Positions 27,023 to 31,976 of a DNA stretch of 33,215 bases are shown piece after piece (the stretch's first letter is position 1; the number at the start of each line of letters is the position of its first letter). The position numbers and the translations under genes were made by a program. The notes beneath the pieces are model-generated. The model worked only from the letters and a program-made list of their open reading frames with translations. It searched no databases and had not been told where the DNA came from. The stretch is from Chloroflexota bacterium. Its GTDB lineage: Bacteria; Chloroflexota; Anaerolineae; J036; Brachytrichaceae. The stretch is taken from positions 1-33,215 of the forward strand of contig JAUQQA010000028.1 in assembly GCA_030550095.1 (NCBI GenBank), given 5' to 3'.

Positions 27023-28384
27023 ATGCGCACCCCCGTTGGTCGCCTCGGGCTTTGGGCAATGATGCCCATTCCGCTACGGCTGGTGATGGGCTTGATCGTG
27101 CTCGTGGTGCTTGGCAGCGCGGCGTTGCTGTTGCCCTTCGCAGCCGTGCGCCCGCTCTCGCTCGAGGAAGCGCTCTTCACCGCCGTTTCTGCGCTCACCG
27201 TCACGGGCTTATCCATCCTCGCCCCAGGGCGCGACCTCACCGTGCTGGGGCAAATTGTGCTTGCCGTGCTGATTCAAATCGGCGGCGTGGGCTTCATGGT
27301 GATCGCTGTGATAATCTTGCGGCTGGTCGGGCGGCAGATCATGCTGGATGACCGCCTTGCCCTGCGCGACTCGCTAGGTTTGCTTAGCGCTGCGGAGATC
27401 GTGCAGCTGGTGCGGCGCGCGCTGATCGCCATCGCGATCATGGAAGGAAGCGGGGCGCTCGCGCTTTGGCTGCATTGGCGCAACACCCTGCCGCTGAGCG
27501 AGGAGCGCGTGCTCCTCTACGCCTTTTTCCACGCCATCTCAGCGTTTTGCAACGCTGGCTTCGACTTGTTCACAGGGCTGCCCGAATTTCCCGAAGGCGT
27601 GCCGAACGACGGCATCACGCTGTTCATCCTCGCAGCGCTTATCGTGCTCGGTGGGCTGGGCATCCCCGTGATCGGCGATCTCCTCACGTGGCGCTGGACG
27701 CACAAGCTCTCGTTGCACACGCGCGTGACGCTTCTGCTCTCGGCAGCGCTGACGTTCGGCGGCGGTGGTTTGATCTTCCTCGCTGAGACGCTCTCACGGG
27801 GGGCGATCTCAGAAGCGCCCTGGAGCGCGCGTCTCGGGCTCTCGATCTTCCAAGCGATCTCAGCGCGCACAGCAGGCTACAGCGGCTTCCCGAACTTCGA
27901 TCACATCTCCGCGGGAGCGCAGTTGACTTTGGTCAGCTTGATGTTCATCGGCGCTGCGCCCGCTTCGATGGGGGGCGGCATCACCACAGGCACGTTCGCC
28001 GTGATCGCGTTGGCAGCGTGGGGCTACTTACGGCGCTTGCCCGAGACGCAAGTGGCGCAACGCACCATCAGCCACGACACCCTGCGCCGCGCCGTTGCCG
28101 TCCTCGTGGTCTCGCTGATGCTGCTTACGGCCGCCAGTTACTTGCTGGTGATCACGCACCCAATGCTGCGGGTGGACCAGGCTGTGTTCGAGGTGGTGTC
28201 TGCCTTTGCGACATGCGGCCTGTCGCTTGGCGCAACGAACGCCCTCACCTCTTTTGGACACGCCGTGCTGATGGTGGTGATGTTCTGGGGACGGCTTGGG
28301 CCGCTTACGGTGGTCGCTGCCCTCGCGACGCCGCGCCGCCAGCGCCACCTTGCCTTCCCCGAAGGCCACATCCTGATCGGCTAA
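27023..28384 (+). CDS. TrkH/KtrB-family potassium transporter membrane subunit
   Basis: This 453-residue membrane protein has four membrane-pore-membrane repeats. The filter loops, each with its key Gly, are SALTVTGLS (G62), SAFCNAGFD (G179), SARTAGYSG (G285) and SAFATCGLS (G399). The intramembrane Gly-rich loop after the third repeat (SMGGGITTGTFA) is the KtrB/TrkH gate. It imports K+ with or without Na+ coupling, together with the RCK subunit immediately upstream. Length and layout are nearer to KtrB than to the longer TrkH of Gammaproteobacteria. The start codon follows the upstream stop by 12 bp, so the pair is an operon. Confidence 0.95.
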   Translation: MRTPVGRLGLWAMMPIPLRLVMGLIVLVVLGSAALLLPFAAVRPLSLEEALFTAVSALTVTGLSILAPGRDLTVLGQIVLAVLIQIGGVGFMVIAVIILRLVGRQIMLDDRLALRDSLGLLSAAEIVQLVRRALIAIAIMEGSGALALWLHWRNTLPLSEERVLLYAFFHAISAFCNAGFDLFTGLPEFPEGVPNDGITLFILAALIVLGGLGIPVIGDLLTWRWTHKLSLHTRVTLLLSAALTFGGGGLIFLAETLSRGAISEAPWSARLGLSIFQAISARTAGYSGFPNFDHISAGAQLTLVSLMFIGAAPASMGGGITTGTFAVIALAAWGYLRRLPETQVAQRTISHDTLRRAVAVLVVSLMLLTAASYLLVITHPMLRVDQAVFEVVSAFATCGLSLGATNALTSFGHAVLMVVMFWGRLGPLTVVAALATPRRQRHLAFPEGHILIG

Positions 28385-28405: not shown

Positions 28406-29779
28406 GTGGCGCGCGACTTGTTCGATCATGCTATCGAGGCGCAGCAACAACGCGAGGCGCCGCTCGCAGCGCGCATGCGCCCGCGCACGCTGGACGAGAT
28501 TGTGGGCCAAGATCACATCATCGGCCCTGGGCGCCTGCTCCGCCGCGCCATTGAAGCCGATCGGCTGTTTAGCGCGCTTATCCTCTGGGGGCCACCTGGC
28601 AGCGGCAAGACCACGCTCGCCATGGTGATCGCTCGGCACACGCGCGCGCACTTTGAGACGCTCAGCGCCGTCACTGCAGGCGTCAACGACATTCGGCGCG
28701 TGGTGCACGAAGCGCGCGAGCGTCGCAAACTCCATGGGCAGCGCACACTGTTGCTCATTGATGAGATCCACCGCTTCAACAAAGCCCAGCAAGATGCCCT
28801 GTTGCCACATGTTGAAGACGGCACGATCACGCTCATCGGCGCGACCACGGAAAACCCTTACTTCTCGGTGAACAGCGCGTTGCTCTCTCGCGCGCGGCTC
28901 TTCGTTTTGCAACCGCTCGCCGAGGAACACATCCTAACGCTGCTTCGGCGCGCGCTGACCGACCCAGAACGCGGCTACGGCAACCGCAGGGTGCAGGTTG
29001 ACGCCGAAGCGCTGCTTCATCTTGCGCGCATGGCGAATGGCGACGCGCGCAACGCACTCAACGCGCTTGAGCTTGCCGTGGAGTCCACACCGCCCGACGC
29101 AGCAGGGACAATTCACATTAACCTTCCCATCGCCCAGGAGAGCATCCAGCGCCGCGCCGTGCTCTACGACAAAGAAGGCGACGTGCACTACGACGTGATC
29201 AGCGCGTTCATCAAGAGCGTGCGTGGCAGCGACCCCGATGCCGCGCTTTACTGGCTGGCGAAAATGCTCCACGCAGGCGAAGACCCGCGCTTCATCATGC
29301 GGCGCCTGCTCATCCTCGCCAGCGAGGACGTGGGCCTTGCTGACCCTATGGGCCTGGTGCTCACGGCTGCGGCTGCGCAATCCCTCGACTACGTGGGGAT
29401 GCCCGAAGGCGTGTATCCGCTTGTCGAAGCCACGCTCTACCTCGCTACCGCGCCGAAGAGCAACTCCGCGACGCACTACTTTCGCGCTGCTGCCGCTGTG
29501 AGCGAGCGCTCAGCTGCGGATGAGGTACCCGACCATCTCAAAGATAGCAGCCGGGATGCCGCCGGCTTGGGGCATGGGCGTGGCTATCGCTACCCCCATG
29601 ACTTCGAGGGACACTGGACGCCGCAGCAGTACCTGCCCACCCACCTCCTCGGCGAGACGTTCTACACGCCAAGCAATGAGGGCTACGAGCGCGAGATCGC
29701 AGCGCGCCTCGCACGCTGGCGCGCCGCGCAGGAACGCGCGCGCGAGGCAGAGACAAAACCAACGTCTGCACGAGGCTAA
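28406..29779 (+). CDS. rarA: Replication-associated recombination protein A (RarA/MgsA AAA ATPase)
   Basis: This 457-residue AAA+ protein is related to clamp loaders and acts at stalled replication forks. It shows the typical start [21 protein letters not shown], Walker A GPPGSGKT (62-69), Walker [17 protein letters not shown] (119 region), sensor 1 [21 protein letters not shown] and the arginine-finger region. The C-terminal tetramer domain has [26 protein letters not shown] and PDHLKD. GTG 28406 is the only start giving the right N-terminus. A Cas4-like nuclease gene follows after 5 bp, so the two are probably cotranscribed. Confidence 0.96.
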
Positions 29780-29784
29780 GGCGC

Positions 29785-30288
29785 ATGTTCAGCGCAGTCT
29801 TGTTGGCGATCGGAATCGCCCTGTTGCTCCTTGCAGTGTGGCTTTGGCGGCGCAGCGGCTTACCGCTCGGGCGGGTGATCTACAGCGATCCTCACACTTG
29901 GCAGTCCAACGCGCGCACGTTTGTCTCGCAGCGCTACGGCTTAGTAGGCCGCCCCGACTACCTCGTGCGCACGCCGCGCGGCGTTGTGCCCGTCGAGGTG
30001 AAAAACACACCTGCGCCTTCGCAGCCGCATCCAAGCCATGTGATGCAGCTTGCGGCGTACTGCCTGCTCCTGGAAGAGACCTACGGCGCGCCGCCCTATG
30101 GCATTCTGCGCTACGCCGATCGGCAGTTCGCTGTGGACTACACGCCCGCCCTGCGCGAGGCGCTCCTGAACACCTTGCAAGCAATGCGCGCTGCGCTGGC
30201 AACAGCACACGCTGAGCGCTCTCATCACGAGCCAGCGCGCTGCTTCCGATGCGGCTACCGCGATCTCTGCGATCAGGCGCTCGCGTAA
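29785..30288 (+). CDS. Membrane-anchored Cas4/Dna2-like PD-(D/E)XK nuclease
   Basis: The 167-residue protein starts with a transmembrane segment (about residues 3-21) and a basic stretch. A compact RecB/Cas4-type nuclease core follows: D58 (GRPDYLV), E71-V-K73 (VPVEVKN), and Q88-x3-Y92 (QLAAYCLLLEE, the RecB motif). Three C-terminal Cys in C153-x2-C156-x5-C162 match the Cas4 iron-sulfur cluster. The fourth Cas4 Cys, normally near the N-terminus, is absent, which leaves cluster binding uncertain. No CRISPR array or cas gene lies in the window. It follows rarA by 5 bp, so a role in end processing or fork repair at the membrane is a reasonable inference. I associate this anchored form with Chloroflexota. 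Confidence 0.85.
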   Translation: MFSAVLLAIGIALLLLAVWLWRRSGLPLGRVIYSDPHTWQSNARTFVSQRYGLVGRPDYLVRTPRGVVPVEVKNTPAPSQPHPSHVMQLAAYCLLLEETYGAPPYGILRYADRQFAVDYTPALREALLNTLQAMRAALATAHAERSHHEPARCFRCGYRDLCDQALA

Positions 30289-30298
30289 CGGCGCAGCG

Positions 30299-30613
30299 CT
30301 ACACACGCTGGCTCAGGCGTGCAACCACAACACCCAGCACAACGCCATAGACGAGGTAAGCAAGCAAGCGCGCGAGGTCCAAGCGCGCTGCGAGTGCTGA
30401 GATCCCAAAGGCGTAGGCGATCGCGGACTCCGCCAGCCACCACGCAGTGCCGCAAGCCAATCCCCACATCGTGCCTTCGACGTAGCGCACGCGGCGCTTG
30501 CCCATCACCACGCCGAAGACAAGCCCAACAGCCGCCATCACCACCATCTGGATCATCGTGGTGCTGACCAGCGCGGCGGCGCTGCGCAACACGAACCACT
30601 GATCGCTGCTCAT
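30299..30613 (-). CDS. Small membrane protein, unknown function
   Basis: This 104-residue protein has three hydrophobic segments (about 10-36, 48-70, 80-100) with a basic turn after the first (MGKRRVRY). I do not recognise a family. Its ATG at 30613 overlaps the stop of the upstream LarA-like gene by 4 bp (ATGA), so the two are translationally coupled and probably work together. It converges on the nuclease gene with a 10-bp gap and no visible terminator. Confidence 0.7.
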   Translation of the reverse strand: MSSDQWFVLRSAAALVSTTMIQMVVMAAVGLVFGVVMGKRRVRYVEGTMWGLACGTAWWLAESAIAYAFGISALAARLDLARLLAYLVYGVVLGVVVARLSQRV

Positions 30614-31926
30614 GAACGCTCAGAGGCGCGAAGGAGATCGCCGTGCTCGTCGAGAATGCCGTCTAACGGCGCGAGGAACGGCGAGAAAACAGGGCGCGTC
30701 ACGCGTGGGCGCTTAACGAGCAACACGCGCAGTGGATGGTCAACCAGGCTCTCGGTGATCTCGAGGGCTTCGGTTACCGTGCGTGCGGGGATGAAGTGGC
30801 TGCTGCGCGCGAGTTGCTCACGCGGAGTGCCAACGGCGATCACGCGATGCCGTTGCAGCAGTTGCGCCAAGAGATAAGCGCGCTCCTCGCCCTCGCGCAA
30901 GGTGCGACCGCGCAGAAGATGCACAGCTTGCTCAGGGGAATCCGCGTTGGTAAGCGCATCGTAGAACGCTTGCGCAGCTTGGGATTCATCGCCCATGCCG
31001 TCCGTCACGGGCACGATCAACGTGCCCCCTTGCGCCAGCACCGAGGTGGGCGATAGCCCCTGCGCAACGACGGCAGAGACCGCGTCAAACAAGCTCTGGG
31101 GTTGACGCCGAGGAGCCGCCAGCACCAACGCATCGTAGGCGGCATGCCGCACAGGCGCCTCGCGCAATTCGGCGAGCCGTTGCTGCATCACCGCGCGCAC
31201 CTCAGAGGGCACGCCTGCAAAGACGGCGAGCACATTTCCCTGCTCGTCCTCGAGCGCCTCGACTGCAAAGCTCAAGCCCACCCGACGCGCTAATTCTTGG
31301 AGCACGCGCTCCAGCAGTGGAACAGCGAACGCCGTTGTGCGCTCCTCGTAAAAACGCGCCTCGCGCAGATCGCGCTGCGTGCTTTCACCAGCAAGGCGCA
31401 ACAGCGTGTGATAGCTCCCCAAGTGCGTGTTCTCGTCGTCCAGCCGCAACACGCTGATGGCGATGAGCAGATCAGCCACAACAGCGTGATAGTTCACCCA
31501 AAGCGCGATGCCCTCAAAGACTCCCAGCGTTTCCAATTCGCGCTGGTCATTGGGCACGTGCGGGATGAACAGGAGGCGATCCCGCAAGTCTATGGGGAGC
31601 GCCGCCTGATCGACAGGGGCGCTGCTCGATGGAACGAGGCAGAGGATTTGGACAGCCGCTTGCGCCTCGGTGATGATCTCGCGCAGCACAGCGCGCAGCA
31701 ACACTTGGCGCGTGTGGTCTGCGGGAAAGGCGTCGAGGGCGATGACGATGCGCTGTTTGCCAGCAGCGAGTTCGCGGAGGGGCAATCCTGCATTCGGGCG
31801 CGCGAGTGCGTCTGCGCTCGCAGCTTCGACGTCGAGCGCTTCTGTGCTGCGTGGCGCGGCAACGGTCTCAATGTGCCACCGCGCCGGCAAGCGGTGCTTC
31901 ACCGACGCGCGCAGTGTGTGGCCCAC
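30610..31926 (-). CDS. LarA-like (DUF2088 plus C-terminal domain) protein, catalytic residues lost
   Basis: From GTG 31926 this 438-residue protein follows the lactate racemase LarA fold. The N-terminal part has [28 protein letters not shown] and [22 protein letters not shown]. The C-terminal part has [30 protein letters not shown] and the closing [17 protein letters not shown]. LarA enzymes use a nickel-pincer nucleotide held by a Lys, but the matching blocks here are replaced. DDxTRP has become DAFPAD, GTHR is VPSSSA, and PHxFAGFSGGRK is [11 protein letters not shown]. It is therefore probably not an active racemase. GAGGA lies 7-8 nt before the GTG, and a TATAAT promoter (31947-31976) precedes it. 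Confidence 0.78.
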
Positions 31927-31946
31927 GTTCGCATCCTCGCGAGAAG

Positions 31947-31976
31947 ATTATACCGTTGGGGGCGCACGTGCGTCAC
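31947..31976 (-). promoter_or_regulatory. Promoter of the LarA-like operon
   Basis: The minus strand reads GTGACG (31976-31971), an 18-bp spacer, then a perfect TATAAT (31952-31947), followed by a short leader with GAGGA before GTG 31926. Confidence 0.6.

Follow-up and report, generated by a model that had tools for sequence, protein, structure and literature searches.

In the window, the whole 33,215-nucleotide stretch of DNA analyzed here, a gene at positions 30610..31926 of the minus strand encodes, from a GTG start, a 438-amino-acid protein. Pfam and NCBIfam models, a PDB sequence match, alignment and the predicted fold assigned it to the LarA fold without the residues for the nickel-pincer (NPN) cofactor. 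Just upstream of this gene lies a promoter-like site of the form GTGACG-18-TATAAT (31947..31976, minus strand), with TATAAT at 31947-31952 and GTGACG 18 nucleotides upstream of it. The original prediction had given the gene its own TATAAT promoter, and the hexamers were indeed present, agreeing with the consensus at 10 of 12 positions; as a consensus match, the site is a candidate promoter. At the other end of the gene, its stop codon overlaps, in an ATGA, the start of an open reading frame for a 104-amino-acid small membrane protein on the same strand (30299..30613), the overlap being read as tcat on the plus strand at 30610-30613 just as predicted. This protein was recognized from its reading frame and hydropathy, together with a weak match to DUF6789 (Pfam, E 0.0012) below the cut-off. 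Two hydrophobic stretches were clear in it and a third, in the middle, was seen only in its homologue from the related genome G002, and the three-helix topology proposed earlier is thus plausible.

On the far side of the membrane gene, a gene whose product combines a hydrophobic N-terminal segment with a nuclease domain of the Cas4/PD-(D/E)XK type (29785-30288, plus strand) adjoins a RarA/MgsA-type ATPase gene (28406-29779), and G002 has both as neighbors too. The plus strand also encodes, at 27023-28384, a cation transporter of the TrkH family (Pfam TrkH, E 4e-47).

The relationship of the 438-residue protein to LarA was assessed at the levels of both sequence and fold. The Pfam model Lar_N scored 31.2 bits, above its cut-off of 23.3, and LarA_C scored 22.3 bits, slightly under its cut-off of 25; NCBIfam LarA-type models covered residues 9-405 with scores far under their equivalog cut-offs. 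The top solved match in phmmer was LarA itself (PDB ID: 2yjg; E 1e-10, residues 39-402), and the likeness is therefore far beyond chance. Furthermore, an AlphaFold2 model built from 17 aligned sequences (pLDDT 85, pTM 0.82) retrieved LarA first in Foldseek (E 1.9e-26), and VIA-align superposed it on 2yjg with Z 35.1 over 389 residues, as compared with Z 6.5 or less for unrelated folds. The model thus predicts the two-domain LarA fold from end to end.

Within this scaffold, a multiple alignment with LarA from Lactiplantibacillus plantarum revealed the replacements D72A, R75A, H108S, H174D, K184H, H200R, Q295D and K298S. Both the Lys of covalent NPN attachment (K184) and the nickel ligand (His200) were accordingly replaced, and the catalytic pair His108/His174 together with D72, R75 and K298 had become S, D, A, A and S, respectively. 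The whole chain contains only three Lys residues (10, 57 and 405), none of them near the K184 or K298 positions. The claim of an intact LarA scaffold stripped of its NPN residues was confirmed, and it was strengthened by the gene content of the genome described below. Domain-based annotation would label this protein a nickel-dependent lactate racemase, a label that is almost certainly wrong.

In the window genome (G000, 97% complete) and its g1 companions G001 and G002, no LarB-, LarC- or LarE-type gene scored above the family cut-offs, and the nickel-pincer pathway is therefore not detectable in G000. The same search of the examined g4, g5 and g6 genomes likewise returned none. LarC was found in one of the 13 genomes with fully degenerate copies, namely G004, and in five of the six whose copies are intact or partly degenerate, counts that come from related genomes and are not independent. 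G004 has kept LarB, LarC and LarE, its sole LarA-type match is fully degenerate, and neither a canonical LarA nor another NPN user was found there.

Relatives of the window protein occurred in 31 of 40 related genomes and, with intact paralogues counted in, in 24 of the 28 genomes of the family. Named records place this family near Candidatus Roseilinea and Thermoflexales, in the class Anaerolineae, and a scan of named genomes yielded 13 loci, mostly from the same family, the only one in which the clade of the window gene was seen. In the tree, the degenerate and partly degenerate family copies formed one group (support 100/100), separate from the canonical LarA sequences found elsewhere in the Anaerolineae and from the intact paralogues of g7 and g8. 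The g7 copies of this group retain R75, H174 and K184, and H108 as well in two of the three aligned; the g8 copies retain D72, H174 and K184. The g7 and g8 genomes also carry an intact LarA paralogue and have mostly kept LarC. The set of NPN-binding and catalytic residues was lost throughout g1, g3, g4, g5 and g6, in all copies whose sequence extends over the site (the G001 copy being a C-terminal fragment), despite isolated residues such as H200 persisting in a few of them. The tree gave weak support (69/54) for grouping the fully degenerate copies by themselves, and the active-site losses may therefore have been independent. Outside the family, the top matches from across the class whose loci were read had an intact site; this comparison covers the loci of the best matches, and degenerate copies may exist elsewhere in the class. 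Successive stages of site loss (intact paralogues, partial loss and complete loss) can be seen within one bacterial family, and they allow one to follow and test how a rare cofactor was retired and its enzyme scaffold reused.

Such stepwise loss of active-site residues, accompanied by loss of the cofactor pathway, is also what would be expected of a LarA copy heading for disappearance. However, full-length open reading frames of the clade were present in seven genera, and dN/dS was 0.17 between the window gene and its G002 counterpart and 0.16-0.27 within g6. The LarA-like proteins of the clade are under purifying selection (dN/dS 0.16-0.27), and gene decay, disfavored by these estimates, is very improbable.

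To which part of the protein this selection applies was considered using the 20 pocket positions named in PMC7583248. Mean conservation of these positions in intact LarA was 0.92 (background 0.73), compared with 0.70 (background 0.68) among the degenerate copies. This favors retention of the protein for its scaffold or its surface over retention for the old active site, a new site being possible. Purifying selection, in a chain whose old pocket does not stand out in conservation, is consistent with a former enzyme that works without the cofactor and has been retained in a different role. Meanwhile, nine degenerate copies from g1, g3 and g6 share invariant, clade-specific charged residues, for example D65, D164, R185 and R191 (window numbering), which may thus mark a new activity or ligand-binding site. 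These four lie at or near the old site and, together with the purifying selection, would suit a repurposed scaffold that is still catalytic, through a new NPN-independent active site. The pocket columns as a set, however, are conserved no more than background, and the C/H-rich loop of g6 and g1 (DDxxx[C/H]xGxC), considered as a new metal site, was rejected on account of its variation (R in G016, Y in G043); repurposed catalysis of this kind is accordingly unlikely.

The earlier proposal that the LarA-like pseudoenzyme works together with the small membrane protein as a sensor was evaluated from gene order. In its favor, the two genes overlap on one strand in the window and are both under purifying selection, and G002 carries a homologue of the membrane gene (62% identity) on the same strand, two genes 3' of its LarA-like gene. 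In G002, however, a MetY-like gene (Cys/Met-metabolism PLP enzyme) intervenes, and no homologue of the membrane gene was found in G001. In other genera, distant homologues were absent or unlinked, those of G020, G043 and G022 lying away from the LarA-like genes. The pairing is therefore local to the window genome, or to at most part of the genus, and the expectation of a gene pair conserved across relatives did not hold. The membrane gene is probably co-transcribed with the LarA-like gene in the window genome; its standing as a dedicated partner is not supported, and a functional pair is quite improbable, even though a sensor or regulator role of the LarA-like protein itself is possible. A search for a conserved downstream partner of the LarA-like gene likewise gave no neighbor common to the whole clade: a fused FAD/2Fe-2S protein follows in most g6 loci and in g3, DnaN in g4, g7 and g8, MetY in G002 and a GH99-like gene in G001. 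The fused protein is of molybdenum-hydroxylase type (L033:6594-8048) and has an orthologue, 70% identical, in G000 on another contig (G000:C20:34417-35802).

Taken together, we favor, with a probability of roughly 0.65, the reading that the window protein is a former NPN enzyme acting without NPN, a LarA-fold paralogue kept for a non-catalytic role. This paralogue has lost the covalent cofactor Lys, the nickel-ligand His, the phosphate-binding Arg and both acid-base His residues, and would most likely serve in non-catalytic binding, as a scaffold or in regulation, using the two-domain LarA cleft or its surface. The new role is probably binding or scaffolding. The invariant charged residues, and the degenerate copy of G004 alongside retained LarB, LarC and LarE, speak against this reading. 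There is about an even chance that, once nickel-pincer chemistry had been dropped by most of the genomes concerned, a family-specific, cofactor-free LarA-fold lineage took on a new function in either binding or catalysis.

That the pseudo-LarA lineage is real is well supported, and among the papers searched none was found on Roseilinea LarA or LarA pseudoenzymes; we found no earlier description of the clade, although LarA homologues without these residues had already been noted in 2020. These are the LarAH groups 12, 13 and 16, annotated LarA homologues that do not conserve the residues for catalysis and NPN binding and whose homology the authors doubted (Desguin et al., 2020; PMC7583248). As described, they resemble the window protein in residue loss, whereas for the latter both the sequence and the predicted fold back homology to LarA. 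The opposite arrangement to that of the window genome, larB/E/C without larA, is known from about 15% of genomes (PMC11796402). NPN binding persists in LarA-like enzymes that have one catalytic His (9q3j, 9q3k; PMC12611868). These enzymes combine the LarA fold with an altered active site (Z 25-26 to the window model) and retain both the covalent Lys (195/197) and the His that binds nickel, one having been seen NPN-bound, whereas the window protein has lost both residues. The canonical LarA homologues of other Anaerolineae (L044-L061, L092-L105), of the same fold family, have all key residues intact save for K298R, and in L047 genes of Fe-S and FAD oxidase type come after such a homologue. With LarA from L. 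plantarum (5huq) and T. thermosaccharolyticum (2yjg), the window protein shares the two-domain architecture from end to end (Z 34-35, ~20% identity), and differs from them in lacking D72, R75, H108, H174, K184, H200 and K298, in a genome without LarB, LarC and LarE.
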